From contig JAFSPG010000008.1 of assembly GCA_017443025.1 (NCBI GenBank), forward strand, positions 1 through 54,124: 54,124 nucleotides of DNA, in the 5' to 3' direction. The position numbers and the translations under genes are program-made. How positions within the stretch are numbered: the stretch's first letter is position 1; every line of letters begins with the position of its first letter. This document shows, piece by piece, positions 15,607 to 47,206 of this stretch. This DNA is from Bacteroidales bacterium. Lineage in GTDB: Bacteria; Bacteroidota; Bacteroidia; Bacteroidales; UBA932. Below the pieces are notes generated by a model that worked only from the letters and a program-made list of their open reading frames with translations, searched no databases and was not told where the DNA came from.

Positions 15607-17103
15607 GTGACACATCAAATTTCATCCGCCCGCCTTTCGCTTGAAAGGATAAAGGAAATAATCGACAATAAGGAGAAACTTGAACTTTCGCCCGAAAGCG
15701 TCAAGGCCATAGAAAAATGCCGTAAATATCTCGACGACAAGATGGCCGACATCGACCGTCCGGTGTATGGTATCTCCACCGGCTTCGGTTCGCTCTGCAA
15801 CATCACCATTCCCGAAGAGGACCTGAGCCAGCTGCAGTATAATCTTGTGGTTTCGCACGCCTGCGGCACAGGTGAGACAGTCCGCCCGGAAATCGTCAAG
15901 ATAATGCTCCTGCTGAAGATTCAGAGCCTGTCTTACGGCCACTCCGGCACACAGCTTATCACAGTGCAGAGGCTGGTGGACATGTTCAACGCCGACATAA
16001 TACCGGTAGTGTACCAGCAGGGCTCCCTCGGTGCCTCAGGCGACCTCGCCCCTCTGGCCCATATGAGCCTTCCGCTCATAGGCCTTGGCGAAGTCCTCTA
16101 CAAGGGAGAAGTCCGGCCGAGCGCCGAAGTGTGGAAGGAATTTGGCTGGAAAGCCATCAAGCTCCAGTCCAAGGAAGGTCTGGCCCTTCTCAACGGCACC
16201 CAGTTCATGAGCGCTCACGCCGTGTGGTCGCTGATTAAATGCGAGCGCCTGACAGCCTGGGGCGACGTTATCGGAGCCCTTTCGCTCGACGCATACGACG
16301 GACGCATAGAGCCTTTCCTGCCTCTGACTCATCAGCTCCGCCCCCACAGAGGGCAGATAGAAACCGGCAAAATCTTCATCAAACTGCTTGAAGGCAGCAA
16401 ACTTATAAGCAGGGAAAAAGAGCACGTTCAGGACCCTTATTCCTTCCGCTGCATCCCTCAGGTTCATGGAGCCGTCAAGGATAATCTCCGCTACGTCCGT
16501 TCCGTTATCGAAGCTGAAATCAACAGCGCCACCGACAACCCGAACATCTTCCCAGACGAGGATATGATAATATCCGCTGGTAACTTCCACGGAGAGCCTA
16601 TCGCCATTCCGATGGATACCCTTGCCATAGCGATGTCGGAGCTGGCAAATATCTCTGAACGAAGGATTTTCCGCCTGATTTCCGGACATCGCGGCCTGCC
16701 CAAGTTCCTGGTCGCCGAACCCGGCCTCAACAGCGGATTCATGATTCCGCAGTACACGGCCGCCTCGATAGTGAGCCAGAACAAAGGCCTCTGCTGGCCG
16801 GCATCCGCCGATTCGATTCCTTCTTCACAGGGCCAGGAAGACCACGTGAGCATGGGCTCGAACGCAGCCACAAAACTCGTCCGCGTAGTCGATAACGTAG
16901 AGACGGTTCTGGCAATCGAACTTTTCAATGCAGCCCAGGCCCTGGATTTCCGCAAACCGGAAAAGACTTCTCCCCAGCTGGAAAAGATTCTGAACGACTA
17001 CCGCAAGGAGGTCCCGTTCATCGACAAGGATACATATATGCATCCGCTCATAATGAAATCTGTTGATTTCCTCCGCAACGAACCCTGCCCCGTCAGCATA
17101 TGA
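15607..17103 (+). CDS. hutH: Histidine ammonia-lyase
   Basis: Removes ammonia from L-histidine to give urocanate. The 498-residue protein carries the Ala143-Ser144-Gly145 triad in GSLGASGDLAPL, which cyclises to the MIO electrophile. Other family sites are YGISTGFGSL, NGTQFMSAHA, QDPYSFRCIPQVHGA and ITNSATDNPN-like text near SATDNPNIF. The start is a GTG at 15607, 6 bp after hutU; no ATG is better placed. It overlaps hutI by 4 bp. Confidence 0.96.
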   Translation: MTHQISSARLSLERIKEIIDNKEKLELSPESVKAIEKCRKYLDDKMADIDRPVYGISTGFGSLCNITIPEEDLSQLQYNLVVSHACGTGETVRPEIVKIMLLLKIQSLSYGHSGTQLITVQRLVDMFNADIIPVVYQQGSLGASGDLAPLAHMSLPLIGLGEVLYKGEVRPSAEVWKEFGWKAIKLQSKEGLALLNGTQFMSAHAVWSLIKCERLTAWGDVIGALSLDAYDGRIEPFLPLTHQLRPHRGQIETGKIFIKLLEGSKLISREKEHVQDPYSFRCIPQVHGAVKDNLRYVRSVIEAEINSATDNPNIFPDEDMIISAGNFHGEPIAIPMDTLAIAMSELANISERRIFRLISGHRGLPKFLVAEPGLNSGFMIPQYTAASIVSQNKGLCWPASADSIPSSQGQEDHVSMGSNAATKLVRVVDNVETVLAIELFNAAQALDFRKPEKTSPQLEKILNDYRKEVPFIDKDTYMHPLIMKSVDFLRNEPCPVSI

Positions 17104-18434
17104 TTATCAAGAACATAGGAAGCCTTTGCGGCATTCTGCCCGAAGGCGTGGCCCGTAAGTGCGGCGCCGAAATGGACAAAGTCGAATGCCTCGAAAACGC
17201 CTGGCTGAAAGTCGATGACGGCAGAATCATCGACTTCGGCATGATGGATTCCTGCCCTGCGCCGGAAGAAAAGCACTGCGATGGAGACGGCTGCCATCAC
17301 GACGGTGGTTGCCAGGGCGGAGGTGGACATTGCGGGGGCGGGGGCTGCCACGGTGGAGGAGGGTGCCACGGAGGTGGCTGCCATAATCACGATGGCGAGG
17401 AAGTAGTTGATGCCGCCGGAGGCTTCGTGCTCCCAGCCTTCTGCGACAGCCATTCACACATAGTCTATGCCGGCTCGCGCGAAGGAGAATTCCTCGACAA
17501 GCTCCGCGGCCTGAGCTACGAAGAAATCGCGGCCCGTGGCGGCGGCATCCTGAATTCCGCCGACCGCCTGCACGAGTGCCCGGAAGAAGAGCTCTACGCC
17601 CAGTCGTTGGATCGGGTACAGGAAATGATGTCTTTCGGAAGCGGAGCCATAGAGATAAAGAGCGGTTACGGACTCTCTACAGAAGATGAGCTCAAGATGC
17701 TGCGCGTAATCAGGCGCATAAAGGCATCCGTTCCGGCACAAATCAAGGCCACCTTCCTCGGAGCCCACGCGGTTCCCCGCGGAATGTCCCGAGATGAGTA
17801 TGTCGATAAGATAATTTCCGAGATGCTTCCGCTCGTCGGGGAAGAAGAACTCGCTGATTACGTGGATGTTTTCTGCGACAAAGGATTCTTTACTTCCGAA
17901 GATACCGCACGCATACTTGAGGCAGCGGCGAAATACGGGCTTCGCCCGAAAATCCACGCCAACGAGCTCGCCGTCAGCGGCGGAGTTCAGGTAGGAGTGC
18001 AGCACGACGCTCTCTCCGTCGATCACCTCGAACGTACCACCGACGCTGAAATCGAGGCGCTCAAAGGCAGCGCGACAATGCCTGTAATGCTGCCGGGGTC
18101 GTCCTTCTTCCTCGGACTCCCCTACGGCCGTGCGCGTGATTTCATCAGCGCCGGCCTTCCCCTGGCCCTCGCCTCCGACTACAATCCCGGTTCATCGCCC
18201 AGCGGCGACATGCGCTTTGTAATGGCCCTCGGCTGCATCAAGATGAGAATGACACCCGCCGAGGCCTTCAACGCCTGCACCATCAACGGAGCTTATGCCA
18301 TGGGAGTGGAAAAAGAAGTTGGCTCAATTACACGTGGTAAAAGAGCCAACCTCATTATAACCTGGCCGCTACCGTCACTGACTCAGATAGTCTATCAGTA
18401 TCGTAAGCCTTTTATTCGCTGGATACTTCTATAG
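17100..18434 (+). CDS. hutI: Imidazolonepropionase with a Cys/His/Gly-rich insertion
   Basis: Hydrolyses imidazolonepropionate to formiminoglutamate, completing the path feeding FtcD. This 444-residue amidohydrolase has metal ligands in H118-S-H120, KIHANELA and ALASDYNPGS. In the family only about 15-20 residues separate the first strands (DGRIIDFG, residues 40-47) from the DSHSH motif region; here residues about 52-101 insert a low-complexity tract with seven Cys (60, 65, 71, 78, 83, 89, 94) and eight His, mostly as CHGGG units. The frame is intact on both sides. The tract could bind or donate metal to this metalloenzyme, which is inference. It ends 1 bp from mscL, which converges on it. 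Confidence 0.93.
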   Translation: MIIKNIGSLCGILPEGVARKCGAEMDKVECLENAWLKVDDGRIIDFGMMDSCPAPEEKHCDGDGCHHDGGCQGGGGHCGGGGCHGGGGCHGGGCHNHDGEEVVDAAGGFVLPAFCDSHSHIVYAGSREGEFLDKLRGLSYEEIAARGGGILNSADRLHECPEEELYAQSLDRVQEMMSFGSGAIEIKSGYGLSTEDELKMLRVIRRIKASVPAQIKATFLGAHAVPRGMSRDEYVDKIISEMLPLVGEEELADYVDVFCDKGFFTSEDTARILEAAAKYGLRPKIHANELAVSGGVQVGVQHDALSVDHLERTTDAEIEALKGSATMPVMLPGSSFFLGLPYGRARDFISAGLPLALASDYNPGSSPSGDMRFVMALGCIKMRMTPAEAFNACTINGAYAMGVEKEVGSITRGKRANLIITWPLPSLTQIVYQYRKPFIRWILL

Positions 18435-18435
18435 C

Positions 18436-18876
18436 TTATTTCTTTGCTTTAAGAAGGTCGCGGATTTCTTCGAGGAGAACTACATCGTCGGGCTTGGGTG
18501 CGGGTGCCTCAGGCTCTGCAGGAGCGGCTTCCTTTTCTTTCTTGCGGAGATTTGCAGCCTTGTTGATGGCCTTGATCATCACGAAGATACTAAGAGCGAT
18601 GATGATGAAGTCGACGGTAACCTGGATGAAGTTGCCGTAGTGCAGGACAACAGCCTCTTTGACGACTGCTCCCTCTTCAACGACAGCCTCCCTGAGGACA
18701 GCCGTAAGTTCGGTGAAATTGACATTGCCGATAAGGCCGCCGATGGCAGGCATCAGGATGTCGTTGACCATAGAAGAAACGATTTTTCCGAAGGCGCCGC
18801 CGATGATCACACCGACTGCCATGTCAAGGACGTTGCCCTTCATTGCAAACTCCTTGAATTCTTTCAAAAATCCCAT
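18436..18876 (-). CDS. mscL: Large-conductance mechanosensitive channel
   Basis: A homopentameric inner-membrane channel that opens on osmotic downshock. The 146-residue protein has the N-terminal amphipathic helix and first membrane segment ([27 protein letters not shown]), a periplasmic loop with a repetitive [13 protein letters not shown] stretch, the second membrane segment ([18 protein letters not shown]) and the charged C-terminal bundle ending [13 protein letters not shown]. The C-terminal linker is rich in Ala, Pro and Glu. It lies 18 bp after a secreted-protein gene and is probably the third gene of a three-gene unit. Confidence 0.95.
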
Positions 18877-25503: not shown

Positions 25504-26481
25504 CTAAAAAAGAGTATCTTTCGTAAACAATGCCTTGAAATCATCAAGCTGCTTTTCCGCAACACCTAACTCTTTTGCTGAACACTTATCTGCTAACGCC
25601 GCGAAATCCAGGCGCATCAGAAGATCTTTGTTGATCACTCTTTTAGCATCGCTGAACATCAAGGAATGTAGTAGGCGCTGAGCGTGTTCGCCATTGAGAA
25701 TCTTCAAGGTTACGCGTGCTGCCTCTTCTGATTCCATCCCAATAAGATAGCATGTATCATCCAGCATTGCCGGCTTTCCTTCTATGGGAGAAATCATTGA
25801 AAAACAGGCGTGCTTATACAAACCAGAAACGGCTATCTTATACGGCGCAAAGGAATAAGGTCCTATCCCAAAAATAGAAAACCGTGGACGCTTCTTATAA
25901 ATGACGCTTTTGCGACCATCAAGCTCTTTTGAATGTGAGTTTAGATATGCGTACGCTTTGGGGTATTTGATTTTGATATAATCAGTTCTTTCAGACGCGT
26001 TATGTTGCGTTATAATTACATATCTGGAGGCTTCCGCTATATTCTCATCTCCGATATGAGAACTCTTCAAAAGAGGATATATGAGATCGTCTTCTATTTC
26101 AACAATCTCCCCAAGAGCATTAAAATACCTACCGGAAGAATCCTTACGTAACTCCATAACTTTAGAGCAATCATGTTTTACTCCAGACCACCACTCAAAA
26201 GGACAAACTCCATCACAATCTCGAGTCTCATAATAGTCCTCTATGTTAGACACAAACGAATTGTTTGCCCATCCATAGTTATGAAGGTGAGCCAGCGTAT
26301 AGAAGTCATAAACAGAGCAAACAGTTGCAAAGGGGCCACCAAAGTTACACGTCAATAATGAGGCGGATACACTTACATTGAACTCTTTTGTGGCGTTAAT
26401 ATTCCACTGCCTTACATCTGATATGGCAATATGCGCTTTGGGCTGCTCAAATACGATTGTTTCCTTCGAACAACTATTGCG
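25504..26481 (-). pseudogene. C-terminal fragment of a DNA methyltransferase (target-recognition part)
   Basis: The frame is open for about 325 codons from 26481 to the stop at 25504, but has no ATG or GTG near its 5' end; the first usable start is a TTG at 26355. The text resembles the C-terminal region of SAM-dependent DNA methyltransferases: DVRQWNINATKEFNVSV-ASLL, CPFEWWSGVKHDCSKVMEL, GRYFNALGE-VEIEDD-IYPLLKSS, and RPRFSIFGIGPYSFAPYKIAVSGLYK. The catalytic N-terminal domain, with its SAM-binding and NPPY motifs, is absent. Homologous text runs upstream of the TTG right up to the stop codon of the E2-E1-JAB gene, with an 8-bp overlap of frames. This indicates a 5'-truncated gene whose front was replaced, probably by recombination. 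A separately translated recognition subunit is less likely. Confidence 0.7.
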
Positions 26482-28693
26482 CTATTCCACAAATTACTGT
26501 CAGTTTCTTTTTCCCTGTAATAATCATCACGACAGGAAGGCCATCTGGTGCCATATGTTCAGTAAGATGTACAAGAAGTTTCATGTCTAATGAACTTGGC
26601 TTTGTAGGACATCTATCCGGATGTGAGTGCCATTCTCCGACATAGCATATTTGCCCATCAGTCACTTCACGATATTCTTCATACTGCTTTAAAACAGTCT
26701 TATCACCTCGTATGAAATACTCTCGCTCGTTTACACTATTCTCGGCATATATGCTATCAAATATGTATATTTTCTTTCTAGGGATATCAATAGATCCTAT
26801 CAGTACCCCTCCAGTTTCATTTGGTAAGTATTTACTACGTTCGGCCTGAATCTCATTAATCAACCTATCGCAGATATAAACTGAATATCCATTAGTTGAG
26901 AAACGTGTCCAAGAACTTGGGGCTTTGTGATAAAACTTGGTTGTACACGACTCATCATCAATTTGCCATAAGGAGATGCTTGCCTCTTGAGAATGAATTA
27001 TTGAAGGAAGCACCTTGGCAGCAATGGCGGCACACTGAGCCACGTCCGCATTATTGATTTTTACGGATAACTCCCGGCAACTATTCCTCCTGTATCTTAT
27101 TTTAGAGTCTTTCTTGAGGAAAAGATGGTCGTGAAGTTCAGGAGTTTCATTAATCATTCTGTAATATTCCATCTCAAGCAAATCAAGTTTGTGGACTCTT
27201 GCTGTGTCTTCTGCAAGGATTATTAGACTTTTGCCTGACGGGTTCAGGAAAGTGGAGATTCTTCTTGTCTTGATTTTCTTGTCAACGTCTGATGCAAGGA
27301 TGCGTTCTACAGCTATGGAAGTGGAAATGTCGATAATTGCCTTTGAATTTGCGAAAGCTTCAAGGATTTCAGAATCAGACACTGTTTCTTCCGATATTTT
27401 TTTACAAATAGGTTTACACAATGAGTTGTCCCCCAAAAGATTATTCATATCGAAAGCAACGCTCAAAGCCTTGTTGAATCCAATACAGGCACGGTTGAGC
27501 TCGTGCCTTGCCAAATTGTGTGGGCATAATGTATCATCGTCAATGACGATCCATTTGCCAAAACCGGTTCGACATAATAGATTCAATACTTGCGAGCCAA
27601 GAGCCCCTGCTCCAATAAGAGTGTGTAAGCAAGTGTCCTCTATTGCTCCGTTACATTGTGCAGCAAAAGAATGGCTAAAGTCTTCCATACACGACAACAG
27701 TTGAATTGGACGTTCAAGAATATAATTTTTGATAGCTGGGGTAATAGGGTTAACGATGTATCCGGAATTGCCTTTGGTCCATAATCCTGACTTCACAGCC
27801 AGGTCTCTAAGTGTTTCAACGGTGTTGACAAAGAAAGTGTCAACCTTCTCTGCTATCGATGCATTTGAACGTTTCAGAGGGATATCACACAGAAACAGAA
27901 TTGTGACATCCGAGTATGAATCTCCATCGGAAGCGATATCCTGATTGCAAAGGATGTTTGATAGCAAGGAAAATAGAGTGCAGCCATTATTATATTTGAG
28001 GCTGCTATCCAGATTTAATAAAGAAGAAAAATCCCAATTGATATCACCATGGACAACAGGATCAGCAATTATCCGAAGAGAAACATATTTGGTTTTTGCT
28101 TCTTTATCTGAAACAAGTTTGAATAAATGCTTGCCGGAATAATCATTGTATGGCTTGAGGCCGAAGCTTGTAATCTCTTCCTGAAGACTCTCTTTGCTTA
28201 CAACAACAGACTTTGATGTTGATAAGAACGGCTCTAATTCTTGGTCATCTTTGTGGAGCTTCCCTTTGGCTGTAAGGTTAAACCACTCTCTAATTTGGTA
28301 AAGGAACTGGGATGCTGTAAATCTGTGCTTGACTTCATCAAACGAATCTTCTGTAATGCACAACCATACAGGGCGCATCCTGATATTCGTATGTGGAATT
28401 CCTTGCGGAAAGTCAGGCCGCAAAGCATGCACTATGGGAAAGTCGGTTTCTATTTCGTCGAAAACAATGGCAATATCTTCGTATTCTCTAATATCTATTA
28501 CTGGGTATTGAGGCTTGTCAACAGCAATAGTAAGAAATAGGTATTCGGTATTTCCGTGACGCTTTGCTCCTGTGACATTGTAAATCTCAGAATCATAACT
28601 AGCTGCACGTACAAATTCCTTTGCACGTGGAAAGCGTAAATCAGAGATAGCTATATCTTCGTAAGTCGCTAAATCTATTTTGATTTCATCCAT
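26474..28693 (-). CDS. E2-E1-JAB triple-domain ubiquitin-like conjugation protein
   Basis: A 739-residue fusion. Residues about 50-160 look like the prokaryotic E2-like domain of Cap2-type proteins: PVWLCITED with candidate catalytic C112, followed by LYQIREWF and LHKDDQELEP. Residues about 350-570 are an E1/ThiF-type adenylation domain: nucleotide loop GAGALGS (361-367), acidic IDDD (384-387), CPHNLARHEL, and candidate thioester cysteine C539 in RRNSCREL. Residues about 600-739 are a JAB/JAMM isopeptidase: E626 in NETGGVLIG, H689 and H691 in WHSHP, S700 and D703. Conjugation and deconjugation activities are thus in one chain. It is the last gene of a five-gene operon and overlaps the metallo-beta-lactamase gene by 19 bp. 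No ubiquitin-like protein gene is visible. Fusions of this kind linked to MBL-fold genes are known from comparative genomics of bacterial ubiquitin-like systems. Confidence 0.88.
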   Translation of the reverse strand: MDEIKIDLATYEDIAISDLRFPRAKEFVRAASYDSEIYNVTGAKRHGNTEYLFLTIAVDKPQYPVIDIREYEDIAIVFDEIETDFPIVHALRPDFPQGIPHTNIRMRPVWLCITEDSFDEVKHRFTASQFLYQIREWFNLTAKGKLHKDDQELEPFLSTSKSVVVSKESLQEEITSFGLKPYNDYSGKHLFKLVSDKEAKTKYVSLRIIADPVVHGDINWDFSSLLNLDSSLKYNNGCTLFSLLSNILCNQDIASDGDSYSDVTILFLCDIPLKRSNASIAEKVDTFFVNTVETLRDLAVKSGLWTKGNSGYIVNPITPAIKNYILERPIQLLSCMEDFSHSFAAQCNGAIEDTCLHTLIGAGALGSQVLNLLCRTGFGKWIVIDDDTLCPHNLARHELNRACIGFNKALSVAFDMNNLLGDNSLCKPICKKISEETVSDSEILEAFANSKAIIDISTSIAVERILASDVDKKIKTRRISTFLNPSGKSLIILAEDTARVHKLDLLEMEYYRMINETPELHDHLFLKKDSKIRYRRNSCRELSVKINNADVAQCAAIAAKVLPSIIHSQEASISLWQIDDESCTTKFYHKAPSSWTRFSTNGYSVYICDRLINEIQAERSKYLPNETGGVLIGSIDIPRKKIYIFDSIYAENSVNEREYFIRGDKTVLKQYEEYREVTDGQICYVGEWHSHPDRCPTKPSSLDMKLLVHLTEHMAPDGLPVVMIITGKKKLTVICGIAQ

Positions 28694-29820
28694 AAACCTG
28701 CACGCGGAGTGGAACTGCCCAGTATCGTTGTCGTACCCGTATATGAAAGAGCACGTTTAAATGTAATTCCGTCTGAGTCAAATTCATAGACTATAGGCTG
28801 AGGCTTTTTCTCCCCACCATTGATGGCTGTATTCTTGAACCTTTCAGCAGTTACCGTTTTGATGTATTGCTTGCGGGCTTGGAAATGAGGAGGGTTGTTG
28901 TCATTATCTTCTATCTTGTTCGATGATGATACGATGTGAGCTCCTTCATTTGCATATCCCAAAAATTTTGACGCGGAGTCGACGACATCAGGATGATCTT
29001 TTTGGGGCGTGTCGTTGAAGAAAGACCAGGAACAATGATGGGGAGCAAGCAAAATATCCCATTTGAGGGCATCCTCGTTGGATTTTGCTTCAGAGATATC
29101 CATTATATGCTCAAACACATAATGGTCGGCATCTCCACAAATAAATACTCTCGAAACGCGTTGTCCTGAATTTATATTCAACTGCATAACAATGCTGGCA
29201 ATGTTTTCATCTTTATCCGCCCAACTTGTTTGAATGTCGCTCTTTAATGGTGCATGGATGAAAATATTCAATCCAGATAAGTATTTGCCGTTTATCTTGT
29301 AGATGGTTGAGCCTGGGATATAGTGGATACCTTCCTCAATCTTGTCCTCGTCATTGTACCCGATGATATGAATTCTGTTGCCGAGTTTGTCGGCTTTGGC
29401 ATCGCCGGATCGAAATAATCTGAGACGGCGGTTCGCTTCATTCCTGATGGCATTGGCATCATCACACAGATTAAGTTGGAAAACCTTTTGAGTCACCCAA
29501 AGCTCGCCGATTATGATTTCTTCATTTTCCTTGTTGGTGTCACCATAGTCATCAGGATCTCCGTGATAAAAATTGGCATCATATCCAAGGCAGTGGTCCT
29601 CGTGGGGATGAGAGTTGACAAACAAGTCAACAAATGGTTTACCGTTGACTGTTTGAAGTTCTTCCATAAGGTCCTTCTTCACATCGTACACTTCAGTGCC
29701 ATCATCTTTTTTCTCTGGTTTGCGTATCTGGCAATCAAACATTGCAGTGAACCCATCAGTGAGTTTCAGCAAAACATTGTCCCCATTTCCTACAGGGTAA
29801 AACTTTATCTTATGGCTCAT
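28675..29820 (-). CDS. Metallo-beta-lactamase-fold hydrolase of the conjugation operon
   Basis: A 381-residue MBL-superfamily protein. The metal-binding motif is intact: H71-P-H73-E-D75-H76 in NSHPHEDHCLG, then ICGDADH and the late His in LLAPHHCSWS. Such proteins act on phosphodiesters, RNA, DNA or small molecules; the substrate here is unknown. The C-terminal tail after the domain is Ser/Thr/Gly-rich and ends SSTPRAGLWMKSK, and the last six residues are encoded in the overlap with the E2-E1-JAB gene. That tail could be a modification or JAB-processing site (inference). It overlaps the RloB-like gene by 4 bp. Confidence 0.85.
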   Translation of the reverse strand: MSHKIKFYPVGNGDNVLLKLTDGFTAMFDCQIRKPEKKDDGTEVYDVKKDLMEELQTVNGKPFVDLFVNSHPHEDHCLGYDANFYHGDPDDYGDTNKENEEIIIGELWVTQKVFQLNLCDDANAIRNEANRRLRLFRSGDAKADKLGNRIHIIGYNDEDKIEEGIHYIPGSTIYKINGKYLSGLNIFIHAPLKSDIQTSWADKDENIASIVMQLNINSGQRVSRVFICGDADHYVFEHIMDISEAKSNEDALKWDILLAPHHCSWSFFNDTPQKDHPDVVDSASKFLGYANEGAHIVSSSNKIEDNDNNPPHFQARKQYIKTVTAERFKNTAINGGEKKPQPIVYEFDSDGITFKRALSYTGTTTILGSSTPRAGLWMKSK

Positions 29821-30413
29821 ACTTTTTTACTGTTTTTATCTTCTAAGATTTCAATTGCTCTATAAACATTTGTATATGAATGCGTTTCTTTGTCGCACAC
29901 TTTTGCGTTAGCAGTTGCGAAGCTTATCCTATTATCGGCGCAGAGTTCTTGTACCCATTTTTCCTTCTCTAAATATTCAGTGCTTTTCTTGTAAGAGGTA
30001 AGATGCTTTCTCAATGCATCTTCTGCTGATTTCGAATCCCTGAAATAAGAATGGTTGTTCTCAAAATGAAGAAGGAACCAGTATTCAATGGATGGTAAAC
30101 TGCTGCAAATCAAGACGTTTTTCTTGTCTTTGTGCTTCTTAATGAAGGCAGCAAGTCTTTTATTTTCAGCATCATCTCTAACAGAGACATCGGCATCAAA
30201 CACGCAAATTACATATACTCTATTCGACAGCAACTCTTCAACTTTTTTCTGGATTTCTTTGATGCTTGTGTTCCCGAAGAACCTTGGTCGTATAGTACAT
30301 CGATATCCCATTATCTGACGCAGATGCGTGAAATAGAACTGCTCAGTAATACCTTCTCCGACAATATATATACTATCGGTCAGATTTCTGGTTTGTAATT
30401 GACGTTTCGGCAT
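29817..30413 (-). CDS. RloB/AbiLii-like TOPRIM-family protein
   Basis: A 198-residue protein matching the RloB family: an N-terminal VGEGITEQFYF with the acidic E20, a central CVFDADV with D73 and D75, and the family signature LPSIEYWFLLHFE near residues 104-117. The acidic set resembles a TOPRIM-like metal site, so nuclease activity is plausible. RloB partners with RloA ATPases in restriction-linked loci, and the homologous AbiLi/AbiLii pair acts as a phage-defence system. It lies 3 bp after the ATPase gene and overlaps the MBL gene by 4 bp. Confidence 0.85.
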   Translation of the reverse strand: MPKRQLQTRNLTDSIYIVGEGITEQFYFTHLRQIMGYRCTIRPRFFGNTSIKEIQKKVEELLSNRVYVICVFDADVSVRDDAENKRLAAFIKKHKDKKNVLICSSLPSIEYWFLLHFENNHSYFRDSKSAEDALRKHLTSYKKSTEYLEKEKWVQELCADNRISFATANAKVCDKETHSYTNVYRAIEILEDKNSKKV

Positions 30414-30416
30414 AGA

Positions 30417-31706
30417 CTATATATTAGGAATTGCACCAAATTGCCCGAAACGATAGGCCTTCTGTAAGGATGTTATTCGATTGATGCCTTTGAAATCAAT
30501 GAGAGAATATAGCTCCGTAGCACCATTTTCTTTTTTGCTCGTGAACCAAATGCTATCGTTGCGAAGCAAATCATCGGCTTCCAATAAACCATCATAATGT
30601 GTAGTGACAAGCATCTGGGATTCTCCTTTGTGCTTCAGGAAATCCTCCACAATGAATTCAATGAGGGCGGGGTGAAGTGAATCCTCAATCTCATCTATTG
30701 TTATAAAGGAATTGCTTTCTACCGCATGATCGATAACTCCGGAGAGTCCAAAAGTTCTTATTGTTCCATCAGACTGAAGATTTTTGGGTAGTTTGTAGTA
30801 TTCTTTTTCACCGTTCTCGTTTGTGATACAATGCTCAAAATCAACTTTGTTCATAGTGATTGTCTTGTCTCTTTTGAGACGTTCAATCTCTGACACAGGA
30901 ACGCCTTCAGAACTCTTTATGAGTAATGGAATCAATTCATCTGGAACTTTTCTCTCAATTTGCTGGATGTCTATACCTGTTATATTATAATCAGCCCTTT
31001 GCAAGAAATTGAGAATCGCTCCCTTTTTGCTCTCGTCACGAGATATTATGCTTTCGGTATATGCCACATTGTCTTCCAGTCCCATTCGATGTTGGAAGGT
31101 AAAATGAGCTTTAGCCCAGTTCATAACTGTGTCCATTTCCTCTGCACCGACATTTACTTTGTTGTATGCGGCAAAAACAGAGACATTCTGGAGGCAATAT
31201 AACGAAATTTGCTCCTTCGCTGCCTGTACTAGTTTAACTCTCTTGGGATTGAAGGTAATTTGTGATATACCGTCCACGGTAACCCGTTCATAAATAGTGG
31301 CAGGCTGCTGTGACGGATATGTCAGTAATTTCTCGTTCAATACGACATTGTTGCTAACAGTGAGATTGTAAACATATTTTTTCTGGCCGATGTAAAATCC
31401 TATTGAAAACTCTGATGGTTGATTGGGCATCTCACTTGAAAGAAGGAACGGGATAGCTCCGGTAGGTTGATCTTTATTTTCAAGATATTGAAACCAGAAA
31501 TTTCTCAGGAATTCAATTGCAGATACAAGATTTGTCTTTCCAGATGCATTTGCCCCATATACAACGGCTATGCGGAGAATTCTCACCCCTGGCGCGATTT
31601 CTACAACCTGATAGTCTTCGTATTTTTTATCTTTTGTGGCTTCGAAATTAAATACAACTTCGTCTTTGAAAGATAAGAAGTTTTTAATCTTAATGTACTG
31701 TATCAT
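30417..31706 (-). CDS. RloA/AbiLi-like AAA ATPase
   Basis: A 429-residue ATP-binding protein of the ABC/SMC-like AAA_15 group. It starts with IKIKNFLSFKDEVVFNFE, typical of the group. Walker A is GANASGKT (51-58), and the C-terminal block has a signature-like LSGVIDHA and Walker B with SFITIDEIEDSLHPALIEFIVEDFL, followed by the switch region MLVTTHYDGLLEAD. Such ATPases act as sensors or regulators of a partner nuclease. It overlaps the membrane-protein gene by 4 bp and is followed by the RloB-like gene. Confidence 0.88.
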   Translation of the reverse strand: MIQYIKIKNFLSFKDEVVFNFEATKDKKYEDYQVVEIAPGVRILRIAVVYGANASGKTNLVSAIEFLRNFWFQYLENKDQPTGAIPFLLSSEMPNQPSEFSIGFYIGQKKYVYNLTVSNNVVLNEKLLTYPSQQPATIYERVTVDGISQITFNPKRVKLVQAAKEQISLYCLQNVSVFAAYNKVNVGAEEMDTVMNWAKAHFTFQHRMGLEDNVAYTESIISRDESKKGAILNFLQRADYNITGIDIQQIERKVPDELIPLLIKSSEGVPVSEIERLKRDKTITMNKVDFEHCITNENGEKEYYKLPKNLQSDGTIRTFGLSGVIDHAVESNSFITIDEIEDSLHPALIEFIVEDFLKHKGESQMLVTTHYDGLLEADDLLRNDSIWFTSKKENGATELYSLIDFKGINRITSLQKAYRFGQFGAIPNI

Positions 31707-32431
31707 AATTGTTTATTGTTATTTGCGTCCAATGTTTCAAGTAATCTTTCGGCATATCTGAATGCGTGTATCTTTATTATCCTTTCTCTTACGACAAAAC
31801 TTTGAAAGGCGATTTCGCATAACGACAGAGCTAGTCCGAAACTGGAAAAAGGATATGTCATCACACCCAAAATCATAAGAGTAACATATATGGGAATAGC
31901 TAATGCTGCAATCCAGATAGATATACACTTCAATCCATAAATGTTTCGCCACATTCCATAATCTTCGTTCTCACATTTAAGAAGTTGGTGTTCCGCGCCT
32001 CGGGTGTTGGCACGAAGATATTTGGATACGCTGTCATAGATTTCATCACATTTCTCCAAATTTGCCTCTTCATCTGATTTCGTGGGTAAACGAAGATCAG
32101 GCAAAAGGTGCAGAATTACTGAATAATAACGGGTCTTCGTTTGGCAGTCAATAATCGCATTTGTTTGCCTGAGTAGCACACTTGTCGGTTTTCCACCCCA
32201 GGATTTGAACATTTTCTTTTCTTTATCGCGCCCCAACGTTCTGCAAATTGAGGCTAATATATATAGCAGTGCAGAAATGATGATTAATGGGAAAGCGAAA
32301 TCCGTTATAGAGTTTATGCCAGGAACACAGTTAAAGAGAATAGGGAACAATGGAAGCAAGGTGACTATAGCCGGCGTTAATCCTGCTTTCAACTGATAAG
32401 AATCCAATATAACCATACTTTTGTTTTCCAT
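31703..32431 (-). CDS. Four-helix membrane protein heading the defence operon
   Basis: A 242-residue protein. Two hydrophobic segments lie near the N-terminus (AGLTPAIVTLLPLFPILFNC and FAFPLIIISALLYILASI) and two near the C-terminus (CISIWIAALAIPIYVTLMIL and YPFSSFGLALSLCEIAFQSF). They flank a polar helical middle of about 100 residues. This 2+2 layout recalls predicted membrane effectors of bacterial conflict systems (S-4TM or SLATT-like), but I do not recognise a specific family. I chose the ATG at 32431 because the promoter motif at 32448-32455 lies inside any longer frame. It could be the killing effector or a membrane sensor; both are inference. Confidence 0.75.
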   Translation of the reverse strand: MENKSMVILDSYQLKAGLTPAIVTLLPLFPILFNCVPGINSITDFAFPLIIISALLYILASICRTLGRDKEKKMFKSWGGKPTSVLLRQTNAIIDCQTKTRYYSVILHLLPDLRLPTKSDEEANLEKCDEIYDSVSKYLRANTRGAEHQLLKCENEDYGMWRNIYGLKCISIWIAALAIPIYVTLMILGVMTYPFSSFGLALSLCEIAFQSFVVRERIIKIHAFRYAERLLETLDANNNKQL

Positions 32432-32447
32432 ATTTGCAATTTTTCTG

Positions 32448-32455
32448 CAAATATA
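32448..32455 (-). promoter_or_regulatory. -7 promoter motif of the five-gene defence operon
   Basis: Reads TATATTTG on the minus strand, 16 bp before the ATG at 32431, predicting a leader of about 10 nt. It is the only promoter motif found for the operon. Confidence 0.5.
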
Positions 32456-32559
32456 CAAAACTAAATTCAAATATTCGTTATTCGGTTGCAAAAATTCTGT
32501 AATACCAACAGGTCACTCTGAACCATCTCAAAAGTATATTCGTTCATATCAGAAAGGTT

Positions 32560-32935
32560 TTCGCAAAGGTCGGAGCATTTGCCGATATAATCAAAGCGGT
32601 CAAAGCCAGTTCGCTACGCTAAAGCTACGCTCACTCGCTTTGGCTGCGCCCTCCGGGGCACTATCGCGCCCCTCCGAATTCCGCTTATGGCAGCTCCACT
32701 GCGAGACTCTGCCCGCCGCGCCAAGGTGCTTTGGTCAGAGACTCGCGGCCGCTCCACGCCGCGCTTCGCGCATATAAGAGAAAAAGGTCACGGCCAGCAG
32801 TCGGTTGTTCCGCTCGCTGCGCCCCCTCCACAACCGCCAGCTCGCCGTGCTGGTCAGTCCCCCCGACCCCTTGTCCGGGGATGGACAAGCCCCCGGCAGT
32901 GTCTTCCCTTTCCACCACAGCATCCAGCATAATAT
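32560..32935. other. GC-rich block between defence operon and abiE genes, no supported gene
   Basis: This 557-bp gap (32432-32988) is AT-rich at both ends, but about 375 bp in the middle are sharply GC-rich. The block holds short palindromes such as CCCCTTGTCCGGGG and repeated CTCGCTGCG-like strings. Open frames cross it in several phases but none has a convincing start or family text. Its composition matches neither the AT-rich island nor ordinary core genes. I suspect a remnant of a conjugative or mobilisable element end, at low confidence. Confidence 0.4.
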
Positions 32936-32944
32936 CGAAAAAGA

Positions 32945-32975
32945 TTTGTTATTCTAAATATTATTCGTACTTTTG
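32945..32975 (+). promoter_or_regulatory. Complete Bacteroidota promoter for the abiE pair
   Basis: TTTG at 32945-32948 and TACTTTTG at 32968-32975 with a 19-bp spacer, matching TTTG-N19-TAnnTTTG. Confidence 0.75.
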
Positions 32976-33003
32976 TGAACTGAAAGTAATGCGTAGAACT
33001 ACT

Positions 33004-33573
33004 ATGAGTTTACAAAATCGACTTCTCCTGAACCTGTACAAGGATAAAGCAAGTGTTTTCACTATGCAGGGGATTGCCTTGGCTTATGGCCTGGAGCGGG
33101 ACCGGGATATATTGAAGAGCAGGATGAACAGCTATGTCAAGAAGGATGAGATTCTCAATCCCCGGAAAGGAATCTATGCCAAACCGGACTATGATGAAAA
33201 GGAACTTGCCTGCCTGCTCTATACCCCGTCCTACATCTCCCTGGAGTATGTGCTTCAACGTGCCGGAATTATCTTCCAGTACAGCGATGAGATTACCTCC
33301 GTGGGGAATCTGAGCAGGAGCGTTGAAATCGACGGCAAGGTGTACCGGTATCGGAAAATCAAGGGCGAAATCCTGGTTGATACGACAGGCATAATCCGCG
33401 AAGGCAATGTCAATATAGCGTCTCCGGAAAGAGCCTTCCTCGACACTTTATACCTTGACAGCAATTATTATTTCGATAATCCATCCTCCCTGGACAAACA
33501 AAAGGTGCTTTCTCTCCTCCCTATCTATAATAGCAAAACGCTCGAGCAACGTGTTTCAAAAATTCTCGGATAA
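33004..33573 (+). CDS. AbiEi-like antitoxin
   Basis: A 189-residue protein with an N-terminal winged-helix region (about 1-60), in which MQGIALAYGLERDRDILKSRMNSYVKKDEILNPRKGIYAKP resembles AbiEi-type antitoxins. LAC-LYTPSYISLEYVLQRAGI then leads into the C-terminal domain, with ASPERAFLDTLYL near the end. Such proteins repress their own operon and neutralise the AbiEii nucleotidyltransferase (type IV toxin-antitoxin). An in-frame ATG at 32989 is possible but would leave almost no leader after the promoter. It overlaps the toxin gene by one base (TAATG). Confidence 0.82.
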   Translation: MSLQNRLLLNLYKDKASVFTMQGIALAYGLERDRDILKSRMNSYVKKDEILNPRKGIYAKPDYDEKELACLLYTPSYISLEYVLQRAGIIFQYSDEITSVGNLSRSVEIDGKVYRYRKIKGEILVDTTGIIREGNVNIASPERAFLDTLYLDSNYYFDNPSSLDKQKVLSLLPIYNSKTLEQRVSKILG

Positions 33574-34268
33574 TGGATACGAACAAACACAAATTCTTCA
33601 TGCTGCAGCTGCTGAAGGACATCTTCTCCGACTCGCTGCTATCCTCCGTCCTGGCATTCAAGGGCGGCACTGCCACCATGTTCTTTCACAATCTGCCGCG
33701 CTTCTCGACTGACCTGGACTTCAAGCTGCTGAATCCGGAAAAGGGAACCGAAGTTTATGAGAGAGTCCGTAATATTGTCCTTAAATATGGCAAGATCTAC
33801 GACGAAGCATTTAAGCACTACGGTATTATTATCGTACTCGATTACGGAATCGGCGAACGGAAGCTTAAGATTGAGATATCCAACAGGCTGTTCGACAATC
33901 ACTATGAAATCCTGAATTATCTCGGCCTCCAGATGCGAGTCTTGGTTAAAGAAGATATGTTCGCACATAAATTGTGCGCGCTCCTTGACAGGACCGAGAT
34001 TACCGGCCGAGACGTATTCGACTGCTGGTTCTTCCTGAAAGAACGTACATCTGTCAATAAAGAAATCGTTGAATCCCGCATGGGAATGCCCATTGAAGAA
34101 TATCTGGACAAATGCATCGCAAATGTGCAGAATATCTCAGAAAAGAGCTTGATTAGCGGTTTGGGAGAGTTAACCGAAGGCGAGATGAAGGATTTCGTTC
34201 GCCATGGTCTGAAAGACGAACTCATCTCACTTATGACCATGTTCAAGACCTTCCCTTCTTTTGTGTAG
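33573..34268 (+). CDS. AbiEii-like nucleotidyltransferase toxin
   Basis: A 231-residue protein of the AbiEii/AbiGii family. The nucleotidyltransferase motif is present: KGGTATMFF, then RFSTDLDFKLL, where the two Asp bind metal. EDMFAHKLCALLDR and GRDVFDCWFFL follow, as in the family. AbiEii toxins transfer nucleotides to RNA targets and stop growth on phage infection. It pairs with the gene upstream and ends 3 bp from rsmD, which converges on it. It marks the right border of the accessory island. Confidence 0.88.
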   Translation: MDTNKHKFFMLQLLKDIFSDSLLSSVLAFKGGTATMFFHNLPRFSTDLDFKLLNPEKGTEVYERVRNIVLKYGKIYDEAFKHYGIIIVLDYGIGERKLKIEISNRLFDNHYEILNYLGLQMRVLVKEDMFAHKLCALLDRTEITGRDVFDCWFFLKERTSVNKEIVESRMGMPIEEYLDKCIANVQNISEKSLISGLGELTEGEMKDFVRHGLKDELISLMTMFKTFPSFV

Positions 34269-44143: not shown

Positions 44144-45052
44144 ATGATAGCTAAATTCTCAGACGTATTTGCAGAACTCAAGGAAAAGGGAATATGCAAA
44201 AGAATGGTCGCAGCCTGGGCTGTTGACTCACACACCATCGAGGCCGCCAGCAAAGCCGTCGACCTTGGCATCATCAAGGCTACCCTCGTGGGCGATGACG
44301 CCCTGATTACCGAAGTCTGCGCCAAGGAAGGCATAGACAAAGCCAAATTCGAGATTGTCCACGAGCCCGTGGAGATGAAAGCGGTCGCAAAGGCCGTTCA
44401 GATGGTCCACGACGGGCAGGGCGACATCCTGATGAAAGGCCTCTGCTCTACGGATAAATTCCTCCGCGCCATCCTCAACAAAGAGACCGGCCTTCTCCCG
44501 CCCAAGGGCCTTCTCAGCCACGTCGGCATCATCGAGAATCCGGGCTATCACAAGCTGATGTTCCTTACGGACATGGCGGTAATCCCCCAGCCTGACTTCC
44601 GTCAGAAGGTCAAGATTACAGGTTTCGTCACCGATGTCGCCAAGTCTTTCGGAATCGCAAAGCCCAAGGCAGCTTTCATCGCCGCTTCCGAGCAGATGCT
44701 TGATTCAATGCCGGCTTGCATCGAGGCTGCAATGCTCGCCAAGATGTGCGACCGCGGCCAGATCAAGAGCGTAATCGGCGACGGTCCCCTCGCCCTCGAC
44801 GTAGCCATCGACGAAGAATCCGTAAGAATCAAGAAGCTCGTCAGCCCCGTTGCCGGCGACGCCGACTGCCTTATCTTCCCGAACATCGAGTCAGCCAATG
44901 TCTTCTGGAAGGCCAACTCCAAGCTCTGTCCCGGAGTCAAGCAGGCCGGAATGCTCGTAGGCACCACAGCCCCCTGCATCCTCGCCAGCCGCGCCGACAG
45001 CGCCGACACCAAGCTCAACTCCATCGCCGAAGCCGTAATGTTCGTGAAATAA
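44144..45052 (+). CDS. ptb: Phosphate acetyl/butyryltransferase family enzyme
   Basis: A 302-residue PTA/PTB-family protein that makes acyl phosphate from acyl-CoA. Family text: VGDDALITEVC, GQGDILMKGLCSTDKFLRAIL, LLSHVGIIENPGY, and DCLIFPNIESANVFWKAN. The length and pattern fit the short Ptb form rather than the classic Pta. Next to an acetate kinase it may serve as the phosphotransacetylase, or handle butyryl- or branched acyl-CoA. No other butyrate genes are in the window. A terminator follows. Confidence 0.88.
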   Translation: MIAKFSDVFAELKEKGICKRMVAAWAVDSHTIEAASKAVDLGIIKATLVGDDALITEVCAKEGIDKAKFEIVHEPVEMKAVAKAVQMVHDGQGDILMKGLCSTDKFLRAILNKETGLLPPKGLLSHVGIIENPGYHKLMFLTDMAVIPQPDFRQKVKITGFVTDVAKSFGIAKPKAAFIAASEQMLDSMPACIEAAMLAKMCDRGQIKSVIGDGPLALDVAIDEESVRIKKLVSPVAGDADCLIFPNIESANVFWKANSKLCPGVKQAGMLVGTTAPCILASRADSADTKLNSIAEAVMFVK

Positions 45053-45073
45053 ATTCTTTCAACCAGATACCAC

Positions 45074-45112
45074 TGCGCCACACGACATATTCCTGTCAGG
45101 TGGCGCATTTTT
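45074..45112 (+). terminator. Terminator after ptb
   Basis: TGCGCCAC (45074-45081) pairs with GTGGCGCA (45100-45107) across an 18-nt loop, followed by TTTTT. A second hairpin, CAGGTG/CACCTG, lies about 50 bp downstream. Confidence 0.6.
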
Positions 45113-45131
45113 AGACCCAACTGTTGAGAAA

Positions 45132-45263
45132 ATGGGCGTTTTCCCGGCAGGTGGAACATTTTTTGGCACACCTGACATCCAAGACAATGCCAAAGCTCAG
45201 TGCATGGCTATAGCCTTCGGAATGGTACGCGCCACTGGCAAAATGCCTCCGGCAGTTTTATAG
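45132..45263 (+). CDS. Possible 43-residue peptide or gene remnant
   Basis: An ATG-initiated frame of 43 codons ending at 45263, with gene-like composition (AGGTFFGTP, then DNAKAQCMAIAFGMV). The same frame is open upstream through SGGAFLDPT, which repeats the AGGTFFGTP pattern 17 codons earlier. No family recognised. It overlaps the terminator region of ptb and the end of the convergent exonuclease gene by 6 bp. It may be a decayed gene or chance. Confidence 0.25.
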   Translation: MGVFPAGGTFFGTPDIQDNAKAQCMAIAFGMVRATGKMPPAVL

Positions 45264-45752
45264 AAGTTTCAGGGCGATGCGGGCGCAGGCTTCGGCATCG
45301 GCGAGAGCGTGATGATGCTGCGTGAGGTCATAGCCGCAGGCAGCCGCAACGGTCTGCAACTGATGGTCCGGAAGAGAACAGCCGAAGTGCCGGCGCGACA
45401 CCGCAAGCGTATCGTAGAACTCATAATCCGGATAATCCATCCGATACACGCTGAACACTTCCCTCAAACAGCCCTCATCAAACGGGCTGTTATGCGCCAC
45501 AAGCGGCAGCCCTTCAATCATCGGGGCAATTTTCTCCCACACACGCGGAAATACAGGGGCATCCTCCGTATCATCAGCACAAAGTCCGTGTACCCTTTGG
45601 CAGAACCGCTGATAATACTCCGGCTCCGGATGAATCAGAGAGTAGAAACGGTCTACAATCACCCCGTCGCGCACTACCACCACCCCCACGCTGCACACGC
45701 TCGAACGGCACTCGTTCGCCGTCTCAAAATCTATCGCCGCAAAGTCTTTCAT
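45258..45752 (-). CDS. DnaQ-like DEDDh 3'-5' exonuclease
   Basis: A 164-residue RNase T/DnaQ-fold protein. ExoI is DFETA (D8, E10), ExoII is LVAHNSPFDEGCL, and ExoIII has HHALADAEACA with the DEDDh His and Asp. It lacks extra domains, so it is a stand-alone exonuclease such as those used in DNA repair or RNA trimming. Single gene, facing ptb. Confidence 0.9.
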   Translation of the reverse strand: MKDFAAIDFETANECRSSVCSVGVVVVRDGVIVDRFYSLIHPEPEYYQRFCQRVHGLCADDTEDAPVFPRVWEKIAPMIEGLPLVAHNSPFDEGCLREVFSVYRMDYPDYEFYDTLAVSRRHFGCSLPDHQLQTVAAACGYDLTQHHHALADAEACARIALKLL

Positions 45753-45906
45753 AATCTGTAGTTTGCTGACATCTCATCGATACAGAGCAAAGATAATATT
45801 ATATAACATTTATTCCTACTATAGCCGTGTTTGCTGGAGCAAAGATATATGAGAATTTGGGCTGGTGAATGTCGAAGTAGCCAGCGAAAGATGACGCATT
45901 GAGCTC

Positions 45907-46026
45907 TTGCGCGACACAAAAACGCGTTATTTGGGCTCCGACCCCGAAAAATAACCCGGTGCGCGACCATATTTGGTCGATTATGGGCTCCGACCCCCAC
46001 GGAAAACGGCTTGCGCGACACAAAAG
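45907..46026. repeat. 52-bp-period repeat, two full units and part of a third
   Basis: GCGCGAC occurs at 45909, 45961 and 46013, exactly 52 bp apart; GGGCTCCGACCCC occurs at 45933-45945 and 45985-45997, also 52 bp apart. The sequence between the conserved boxes differs from unit to unit. TTGCGCGACACAAAA is shared by units 1 and 3. The rest of the 320-bp gap (45753-46072) holds nothing else I can support. Confidence 0.7.
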
Positions 46027-46072
46027 CCGCCAAAACGGACGCGCAAGGATTGAGAGGAGAGGACCTGGGGTG

Positions 46073-46756
46073 TTAGATTACACTTTTGGCAGCCTCAAGC
46101 AAGCGCACTTGATTTATGATATCAATTTTTATGATATCCCAGTCTTTGCCTTCGAGGCATTTCGGATCAGGTTGCAAGTCGGCTTTCGAAAAATCCACAA
46201 GCGCCTCCATAAGTTTGGCTTGGTCGTATGTCCATGGCTGCCATTTCTCATATAGCCTAAACATCTGTTCAAGAGAGTACTCTTCCAGTAATTTGTGTAC
46301 ATCCCACCAATCCTTTTTCCTTCCTCCAAGGCTGATTGCCGAAAGTTTCATCGCGGCGATTTGATCAATTGACGCGAACCGAATACCGTCTATTGTCTCA
46401 GGCTCTGAAAGGAACTTATCGGTGTACATAAGGTCAAGTTTAACAGCATTATCTCTATTTAGCCCGACATAATACATTCTACCAAAGCCAATAAGCCCCG
46501 ACCTGTCCGGACTGTCAAAGAATGGGAACTTAACGGACAGTATTTTTTCAAGACTCGAAAAGTCAATGCTGCCATAATCACTATCCGTGAATAAATCGAT
46601 ATCATCGGATTGTCTGTGTCCAAAACGCAGACTCAGATTAGTCCCTCCGACAAGCCTGAAGGGATTAAATGCCTCATCGTTCATTAAGAATGACAATACA
46701 TTCGCGAGGATAGGCGTGACTGTTTCGTAATGTAAAGTGTCCTTAATCTTTCCCAT
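46073..46756 (-). CDS. AbiEii/AbiGii-type nucleotidyltransferase, probable toxin
   Basis: A 227-residue nucleotidyltransferase. FNPFRLVGGTNLSLRFGHRQSDDIDLFT carries the GG and D-x-D metal site (here DDID). VKLDLMYTDKFL and ASIDQIAAMKLSAISLGGRKKDWWDVHKLL follow, typical of the AbiEii family. It overlaps the upstream HTH gene by 14 bp. The pair fits a toxin-antitoxin module, although the antitoxin is not AbiEi-like. AT-richer than its neighbours. Confidence 0.85.
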   Translation of the reverse strand: MGKIKDTLHYETVTPILANVLSFLMNDEAFNPFRLVGGTNLSLRFGHRQSDDIDLFTDSDYGSIDFSSLEKILSVKFPFFDSPDRSGLIGFGRMYYVGLNRDNAVKLDLMYTDKFLSEPETIDGIRFASIDQIAAMKLSAISLGGRKKDWWDVHKLLEEYSLEQMFRLYEKWQPWTYDQAKLMEALVDFSKADLQPDPKCLEGKDWDIIKIDIINQVRLLEAAKSVI

Positions 46757-47156
46757 AATATTTATCTATCGCTTTGATTTCAGAGGCGTTACCGCGTTCA
46801 TATACACGCTGAATTATGAACTCTTTGTTCTTGGACCAGTCAAGCTTTTCCGGGTCTATATCCCAAAATACATACTTTCTAATATGAGGAGTTCCCTTGC
46901 GAGTTGACCTGACTTCATTCTGACCAATCAGATAATAAGTCTGAATTACTGCAAAGAACCCCTGCTCAAAATTAAGTGCTTTATCGAGCTTCAGAGAAAC
47001 AGGTATTGTCATCGCTCTCTTGCCCTTAATTATAGCATTTATCGTTTGAAAATGCTCACCAATAGTATTCGCCAAATCCCTTTGCGTGATATTAGTATTC
47101 CTCAGGCAAGAAGCAATGATTTTCCCGGGAGCAATCCCCTTATATGCATTTATCAT
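46743..47156 (-). CDS. HTH-domain antitoxin-like regulator
   Basis: A 137-residue protein with an XRE/HigA-type helix-turn-helix at about residues 10-60 (IIASCLRNTNITQRDLANTIGEHFQTINAIIKGKRAM). A C-terminal region of about 70 residues follows, with RKYVFWDIDPEKLDWSKNKEFIIQRVYERG, as in antitoxins linked to AbiEii-like genes. I chose the ATG at 47156 over 47162 because the -7 motif at 47167-47174 predicts transcription starting near 47160. An 18-bp perfect palindrome overlaps its -33 box, which suggests self-repression. Confidence 0.82.
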   Translation of the reverse strand: MINAYKGIAPGKIIASCLRNTNITQRDLANTIGEHFQTINAIIKGKRAMTIPVSLKLDKALNFEQGFFAVIQTYYLIGQNEVRSTRKGTPHIRKYVFWDIDPEKLDWSKNKEFIIQRVYERGNASEIKAIDKYYGKD

Positions 47157-47166
47157 GTTCATATCG

Positions 47167-47197
47167 CAAATATAGCACGTTTTTAGAAATAAACAAA
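47167..47197 (-). promoter_or_regulatory. Complete promoter of the HTH/nucleotidyltransferase pair
   Basis: On the minus strand, TTTG (47197-47194) and TATATTTG (47174-47167) have a 19-bp spacer. Predicted leader of only a few nucleotides. Confidence 0.75.
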
Positions 47198-47206
47198 TTT
47201 GTTTAT
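47189..47206. promoter_or_regulatory. 18-bp perfect palindrome, likely antitoxin operator
   Basis: ATAAACAAATTTGTTTAT reads the same on both strands and covers the -33 box of the promoter just upstream of the HTH gene. This is the expected place for an autoregulatory operator. Confidence 0.65.

Follow-up and report, generated by a model that had tools for sequence, protein, structure and literature searches.

Do five adjoining genes from two known types of phage defence form one system, or do they only travel together? This question is raised by a block of minus-strand genes in a 54,124-nucleotide stretch of DNA from a Bacteroidales bacterium (contig JAFSPG010000008.1 of GenBank assembly GCA_017443025.1; the whole stretch is called the window). 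From the head of the operon the genes encode a membrane protein (mem), the ATPase RloA, RloB, an enzyme of the metallo-beta-lactamase (MBL) fold and a fusion of E2, E1 and JAB domains (Table 1). A sequence-only reading of this DNA had described the genes as joined by overlaps of 4, 4 and 19 base pairs (bp) and a 3-bp gap. This was exact: mem and RloA share 31703-31706 (4 bp), RloB and MBL 29817-29820 (4 bp), MBL and the fusion 28675-28693 (19 bp), and 30414-30416 separate RloA from RloB. The same arrangement recurs in two other genomes. We propose, at a probability of about 0.55, that the block is a mobile anti-phage cassette in which a 6A-MBL system with its membrane effector has taken in an RloA-RloB pair of the AbiL type, and that the MBL enzyme would be the protein conjugated.

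By family assignment the MBL and fusion genes constitute the anti-phage system already named '6A-MBL' in NCBIfam. The sequence-only reading had considered this pair a predicted system, a view which is now superseded; the module families and active-site residues which it put forward were borne out. The fusion scored 509.9 bits against NF058523 (6A-MBL_cap2_3, cut-off 320) and the adjacent MBL 348.9 bits against NF058524 (6A-MBL_enzyme, cut-off 220). In the fusion, Pfam located Prok-E2_A at residues 54-165, ThiF at 359-467 and Prok-JAB at 611-728. C112 of E2, C539 of E1 and E626, H689, H691 and D703 of JAB were invariant in an alignment of ten sequences, window included. According to the accessible text of Iyer et al. 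(2006; PMC1779556), operon type 6a usually has two genes, the fusion being almost always beside an MBL. A scan of one genome per species returned at least 469 relatives of the fusion. The best 80 were taken with flanks of up to 10 kb, near-duplicates such as L033/L034 and L093/L095/L096 included, and in 75 of these 80 loci an MBL gene is directly upstream of the fusion. Neither the MBL nor the membrane protein of the window had a Pfam match above cut-off. The MBL fold is closest to the beta-lactamase-like domain of ComEC (best Foldseek match 9ic4, E 1.1e-12; profile E 3.7e-7), and its metal-site residues H71, D75, H76, D230, H261 and H262 were invariant in a 34-row alignment. The enzyme may have a nuclease-like activity.

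Between mem and MBL are neighbouring homologues of AbiLi and AbiLii. RloA matched PADLOC AbiLi (E 4.8e-72) and Pfam AAA_21, an ABC-type family, at 110 bits; K57 in its Walker A motif GANASGKT was invariant (alignment of six). RloB scored 81.6 bits against Pfam RloB (cut-off 31.5) and matched AbiLii at E 3.6e-21. The motifs GEGITE and FDAD were seen in its alignment; we take them to indicate a TOPRIM domain. Open reading frames were called as the longest possible, thus some starts are too early, and transmembrane (TM) helices were counted with a simple hydropathy window.

The five genes were found in the same order in two further genomes of the genus (G1250, locus L211; G1255, locus L212). In blastn the window cassette was 96.2% identical over 6041 columns to L211 and 93.3% over 6058 columns to L212. 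The similarity, about 6.05 kb, ends at the cassette ends. Downstream this was tested over more than 8 kb; upstream the contigs extend beyond the cassette by 592 bp in L211 and by 66 bp in L212, so that in L212 the upstream end was barely tested. In L212 the mem/RloA overlap is replaced by a 2-bp gap. Between the three copies the ratio of nonsynonymous to synonymous divergence (dN/dS) was 0.03-0.24 for all five genes and 0.03-0.04 for RloA; the window-L211 ratios rest on 7 changes in RloB and 4 in MBL. Of 15 gene comparisons, 12 gave a synonymous divergence (dS) of 0.15-0.39 and three (MBL, RloB and fusion, window versus L211) one of 0.013-0.067. This unevenness indicates that cassettes recombine. 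Silent divergence between window and L211 is about 0.3 in mem and RloA but 0.01-0.07 in RloB, MBL and fusion (26474-30413 of the window), which points to a recent exchange between cassettes. The composite is a mobile unit under purifying selection.

Is the membrane protein at the head a part of either half? Judged by its gene neighbours, it belongs to 6A-MBL and not to RloAB. We scored a membrane-directed gene as adjoining the fusion or MBL when it had the same orientation and was separated by no more than 300 bp, or when it was convergent and started at most 1.2 kb downstream. Such a gene was present in 70 of the 80 loci: a patatin in 34, a mem relative in 24, a PDC-M48A-like protein in 6 and another multi-TM protein in 6. 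As mem relatives stand beside the fusion in 24 other loci, mem is a usual third gene of 6A-MBL and not the extra piece which the sequence-only reading saw in it. The mem family (27 members among the open reading frames of the 80 loci) was built by iterating a hidden Markov model (HMM) and may drift. Its members are mostly located 3' of the fusion; in L085, L157, L158 and L183 they are 5' of MBL, as in the window. Plasmid loci of Emticicia, Sinorhizobium and Methylocystis have MBL, fusion and a mem relative in a row, and Rhodococcus and Curtobacterium have MBL and a mem relative without the fusion. The AlphaFold model of mem is all-helical with a confidence (pLDDT) of 92.6. From its position and predicted helices mem is quite probably a membrane effector.

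Other genes near such loci were recorded. A TIR-domain protein is directly 3' of the membrane effector in L039 (13055-14068, plus strand). A divergent protein of about 280-300 residues with a common N-terminus is encoded upstream of MBL in L184, L185, L186 and L187; it may be a CapW-type regulator. Near their 6A-MBL loci, L190, L198 and L212 encode proteins that resemble one another in a Gly/Ser-rich N-terminus (GGFSGKVGTVVGG, for instance), perhaps a phage-derived neighbourhood.

The next question is which protein is conjugated. The MBL model is well folded up to about residue 358, with pLDDT near 90 over most of the fold, and disordered thereafter (Table 1). MBLs beside the fusion carry here an Ala/Ser/Gly-rich stretch followed by P-R-A-G. 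In 34 aligned sequences the proline is kept in 25, R373 in 32, A374 in 31 and G375 in all; residues 359-371 are poorly conserved. Conservation of a motif within a disordered tail agrees with a role as a handle. A RAG-type motif is present in 79 of the 93 MBLs that adjoin E2-E1-JAB (window not counted): 53 end exactly in R/K-[AVLH]-G and 26 have 1-12 further residues. The motif was absent from all 24 other MBLs, which are either additional MBLs of these loci or have no close fusion beside them. Terminal glycine is rare in neighbouring proteins (mem 4/40, patatin 3/40). In type II CBASS (cyclic-oligonucleotide-based anti-phage signalling system), according to the accessible part of PMC10097602, Cap2 conjugates the CD-NTase (cGAS/DncV-like nucleotidyltransferase) via a C-terminal Gly or Ala, a residue whose conservation is confined to systems with E2 and JAB. 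By this analogy MBL itself, attached by its own tail, is somewhat the better candidate for the conjugated protein. The sequence-only reading had named MBL or RloB; the tail favours the former, and RloB is less favoured. Second MBLs beside a TM effector were seen in or next to the 6A-MBL loci L032, L036, L037, L042, L043, L048, L055 and L111; some are below the Pfam cut-off, and those checked have no RAG tail.

How often does RloA join 6A-MBL? Among 81 loci whose upstream flank is 3 kb or longer, seven have RloA within 3 kb (window not counted; two of the seven, L211 and L212, are copies of the window cassette). This count leaves out 24 loci with less than 3 kb upstream, G089 and G231 (1.5 kb fetched), L199, and 13 of 18 new viral loci, three of these being contigs of L183-L185. 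Including the window cassette, RloA adjoins 6A-MBL in six distinct loci (Table 1), always on the 5' side of MBL. In the family of the window five 6A-MBL loci were found (G000, G1250, G1255, G498, G687), representing three distinct cassettes, and each of the five has RloA within 3 kb. Outside the family the proportion is 3/77. Elsewhere in the order G903 has RloA, G906 and G968 have none and G1027 has too little flank; in the rest of the class G190 has RloA and G025 has none. As the query was mem for the family and MBL for the genus, the family search would miss loci that have a different effector. Weak matches were set aside as unrelated: G416 and G690 (19-20 bits) in the family mem search, eight (up to 31 bits) in the genus MBL search, and twelve more (up to 29 bits); from these twelve only G1006, G948 and G964 were retrieved.

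As a background, 150 N6_Mtase and 113 RloA places from the matches listed in 299 family genomes were compared, one per gene and by start-to-start distance. RloA was within 3 kb of 0/150 and within 6 kb of 1/150 N6_Mtase places; in the same genomes, 3/3 mem-bearing 6A-MBL loci had it. The window RloA is 26% identical to that of L157, 20% to that of L158 and 55% to a separate RloA of L132. In a tree the RloAs of the window and L189 fell into separate, well-supported groups among separate RloAs; those of L157, L158, L183 and L197 formed long branches of unsure placement. The different lineages of the 6A-linked RloAs suggest more than one joining; a single old joining with later replacement is still to be reckoned with. 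Two further arrangements were noticed. Further along the viral contig of L183, a few kb downstream of 6A-MBL, is a second RloA-RloB pair (16650-18635, plus strand). In L193 (4494-8257, minus strand) another MBL, a 140-residue gene and a PDC-M48A-like membrane protein are followed by RloA and RloB, without E2-E1-JAB; thus RloAB also joins a simpler MBL and TM pair, here on the 3' side.

Several observations weigh against the proposed cassette as one working whole. Ten of the 80 loci have no membrane-directed neighbour (two only a second MBL, eight nothing of the kind). Fold searches of the Protein Data Bank with the membrane protein gave no close fold, and because of this pore formation is a guess. 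The RAG end is absent in 14/93 MBLs: eight have a YxHG/YG variant, two another terminal glycine and four no clear motif. The L199 MBL, beside a distant fusion (44 bits), has no RAG end; it is among the 24 control MBLs, and counted the other way the numbers are 79/94 and 0/23. The MBL of G231 (L009), outside the 93, ends in HG. In the window MBL six residues, identical in three genomes, follow G375 (28678-28695), thus trimming would be needed before conjugation. The background control used the matches listed, and many contigs are short. Finally, RloA was not within 3 kb in 74 of the 81 loci, so 6A-MBL does not need it; where joined, it is same-strand or divergent, and in L158 and L183 no RloB adjoins it (in the RloB HMM one row, L133, was out of frame).

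These last points suit the view that the promoter and the mobile block are common to two defence systems which work independently. 6A-MBL with its effector and AbiL would then each act alone against different phages, the gain being broader protection and joint transfer. The joined RloAs differ in lineage, position and orientation, and an AbiE pair adjoins the cassette as well. Moreover, 89 of 299 family genomes contain RloA relatives among the matches listed at E 0.001, a threshold that will also admit other AAA ATPases. In 20 RloA regions fetched from these, RloB was next after RloA in 17 and mem, MBL or fusion within about four genes in none. Going by these neighbourhoods RloA-RloB is an AbiL-type pair, usually separate from 6A-MBL. 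Such separateness the sequence-only reading had taken as the mark of a chance neighbourhood; the modules are indeed mostly apart, yet the block persists in three genomes and the joining in six distinct loci. Against independence, RloAB sits between effector and MBL with junctions of 3-4 bp, kept in three genomes at an RloA dS of about 0.3, and RloA accompanies all five family loci at a background of nil or one in 150. On balance two independent systems are a possible but less probable explanation, and the odds appear even between RloAB as a functionally coupled arm and RloAB as a passenger.

Bil and Bub systems use a ubiquitin-like protein. By comparison with such bacterial systems, the protein conjugated by the fusion could be RloB or a small, unseen ubiquitin-like protein with its gene elsewhere. 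The RAG tail would then be a docking or sorting signal for JAB or E1; the 26 MBLs with residues after the glycine would agree with this. We consider it unlikely. No ubiquitin-like gene was found in the cassette, either in the list of open reading frames or, as a beta-grasp domain, among Pfam matches of the five proteins at E 1. MBL adjoins the fusion in 75 of the 80 loci, and the C-termini of mem and patatin show no such conservation. That the neighbourhood is a meaningless accident of a defence island is highly improbable: a G+C content of 0.385-0.423 over about 25-33 kb (most of the rest of the window 0.49-0.58) and a methyltransferase fragment and AbiE genes on the flanks would suit it, but five genes keep their order in three genomes, similarity ends at the cassette and all five are under purifying selection, and chance is not supported for this lineage because the block is present in three genomes and RloA is joined in six distinct loci.

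The sequence-only reading had placed a single promoter at the head of the operon. A -7-like box, TATATTTG, is at 32448-32455 (minus strand) and is kept in 3/3 cassette copies, as is the inverted-repeat core ATTTGCA...TGCAAAT; a pattern search for the full TTTG-N18-23-TAnnTTTG promoter gave no match at the cassette head, so the claim stands in part. A full match was seen at 32945-32975 in the AbiEi/AbiEii pair. A second dip in G+C content (0.45-0.47 at window 45000-48000) is perhaps another island.

Table 1. Genes and features of the cassette and its flanks, and gene arrangements of the other loci in which RloA adjoins 6A-MBL.
Feature	Positions	Strand	Remarks
Membrane protein (mem), 242 aa, four-TM	31703-32431	-	ATG start; alternative TTG start would be at 32491
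RloA / AbiLi-type ABC ATPase, 429 aa	30417-31706	-	PADLOC AbiLi, Pfam AAA_21
RloB / AbiLii-type protein, 198 aa	29817-30413	-	Pfam RloB, PADLOC AbiLii
MBL-fold enzyme, 381 aa, ComEC-like	28675-29820	-	NCBIfam NF058524 6A-MBL_enzyme
Disordered C-terminal tail of MBL, residues 359-381	28678-28746	-	pLDDT <50
PRAG motif of MBL tail, residues 372-375	28696-28707	-	G375, candidate conjugated residue
E2-E1-JAB fusion, 739 aa	26474-28693	-	NCBIfam NF058523 6A-MBL_cap2_3
Mobile cassette, extent common to two other genomes of the genus	26455-32511	-	26457-32497 versus L211; 26455-32511 versus L212 (blastn)
Head region, imperfect 20-nt inverted repeat around start codon and -7-like box	32419-32465	.	arms 85% complementary
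AbiEi/AbiEii pair, adjoins cassette	32731-34268	+	PADLOC AbiEi E 3.2e-76, AbiEii E 1.3e-101
Type II/IIG methyltransferase, C-terminal fragment directly 3' of cassette	25504-26355	-	resembles the remnant of an older, truncated defence gene
Locus L157			RloA-RloB divergent from mem-MBL-fusion
Locus L158			RloA, mem, MBL, fusion in a row; no RloB
Locus L183			RloA divergent from mem-MBL-fusion; viral contig
Locus L189			RloA-RloB-MBL-fusion-PDC-M48A-like
Locus L197			RloA-RloB-MBL-fusion-patatin-mem

How might the proposed cassette work? The anatomy, conservation, effector slot, tail, recurrence and selection are observed; from these we infer every biochemical step. JAB, the candidate protease, or another one would trim the six residues after G375. 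The E1 domain would then adenylate the glycine of the RAG tail and pass it on to the cysteines of E1 and E2, after which E2 would attach MBL to a target in the way Cap2 attaches the CD-NTase; JAB would reverse this. The conjugated ComEC-like enzyme may become active, or may be brought to where it gates the four-TM protein. The latter, whose slot is occupied by a patatin phospholipase in related loci, would damage the inner membrane. RloA-RloB would be a second arm recruited to the operon, RloA as an SMC/ABC-like ATPase sensing infection. RloB could act as a nuclease, or RloA could gate the shared membrane effector. The sequence-only reading had likewise proposed that the ATPase-TOPRIM half would sense phage and that the membrane protein would kill or arrest the cell. 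A bolder version is tentative: 6A-MBL may be a second ubiquitin-like pathway in which the modifier, a ComEC-like metallohydrolase with a RAG tail, has no ubiquitin fold and is perhaps attached to lipid or to the adjoining membrane effector, as ATG7/ATG3-like enzymes do with Atg8. In this bacterial family RloA would repeatedly have been recruited as infection sensor, resulting in a single mobile five-gene unit with one shared membrane effector.

For the E2-E1-JAB and MBL operon type, defined in 2006, the literature found, as far as its text is accessible, states no conjugated protein; the tail would name MBL, down to one glycine. According to the available part of a 2025 review (PMC12355090), the substrate of Cap2 was at that time the sole known E1-type substrate without ubiquitin fold. 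If the proposal is correct, MBL would be the second. The slot, filled by a patatin or multi-TM protein, gives 6A-MBL a membrane output, and two defence systems in one mobile, selected unit offer a good test of cooperation versus mere joint travel.

Finally, the cassette was compared with known systems. Window RloA scores 100.5 bits with AriA of PARIS and 240.8 bits with AbiLi, and no AriB was listed for RloB at E 0.01. Csx27 and tm_4 are accessory membrane proteins of type VI-B CRISPR systems. The iterated mem family contains members matching Csx27 (L042, L056); the window protein itself has no Csx27 match in PADLOC or NCBIfam, the link resting on the iterated profile. PDC-M48, a PADLOC candidate consisting of a TM protein and an MBL, shares a multi-TM protein beside an MBL, and the window MBL matches PDC-M48B weakly (E 2.2e-6). 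However, E2-E1-JAB is not among the PDC-M48 names seen, and the window membrane protein had no PADLOC match at E 0.01, PDC-M48A included. With AbiL the cassette shares the adjacent ATPase and RloB; AbiL is mostly stand-alone in the regions examined, here it is tightly packed within another defence operon. With 6A-MBL it shares the MBL gene directly before the fusion, both above cut-offs and with catalytic residues kept; it differs from the two-gene type of the accessible 2006 text (PMC1779556) by the membrane effector at the head and RloA-RloB in between. Type II CBASS is similar in its E1/E2 and JAB chemistry, in a predicted conjugation of a non-ubiquitin enzyme by a C-terminal glycine (in the window MBL followed by six residues) and in a separate membrane effector, a patatin in many relatives of the cassette. 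In the cassette, MBL takes the place of the CD-NTase and E2-E1-JAB is one chain. No nucleotidyltransferase matched among the five proteins (Pfam at E 1, the best 25 PADLOC matches per protein and the NCBIfam matches listed), and the AbiEii nucleotidyltransferase nearby is on the other strand, outside the cassette. Without a CD-NTase a cyclic-nucleotide signal would be absent. We found no account of the 6A-MBL/AbiL welding, the effector slot or the tail in the literature; the source paper of NCBIfam 6A-MBL was not found, and its authors may know parts. Thus, 6A-MBL and AbiL are known systems, and what appears to be new here, as judged from sequence, is their welding into one cassette, the effector slot and the RAG tail.

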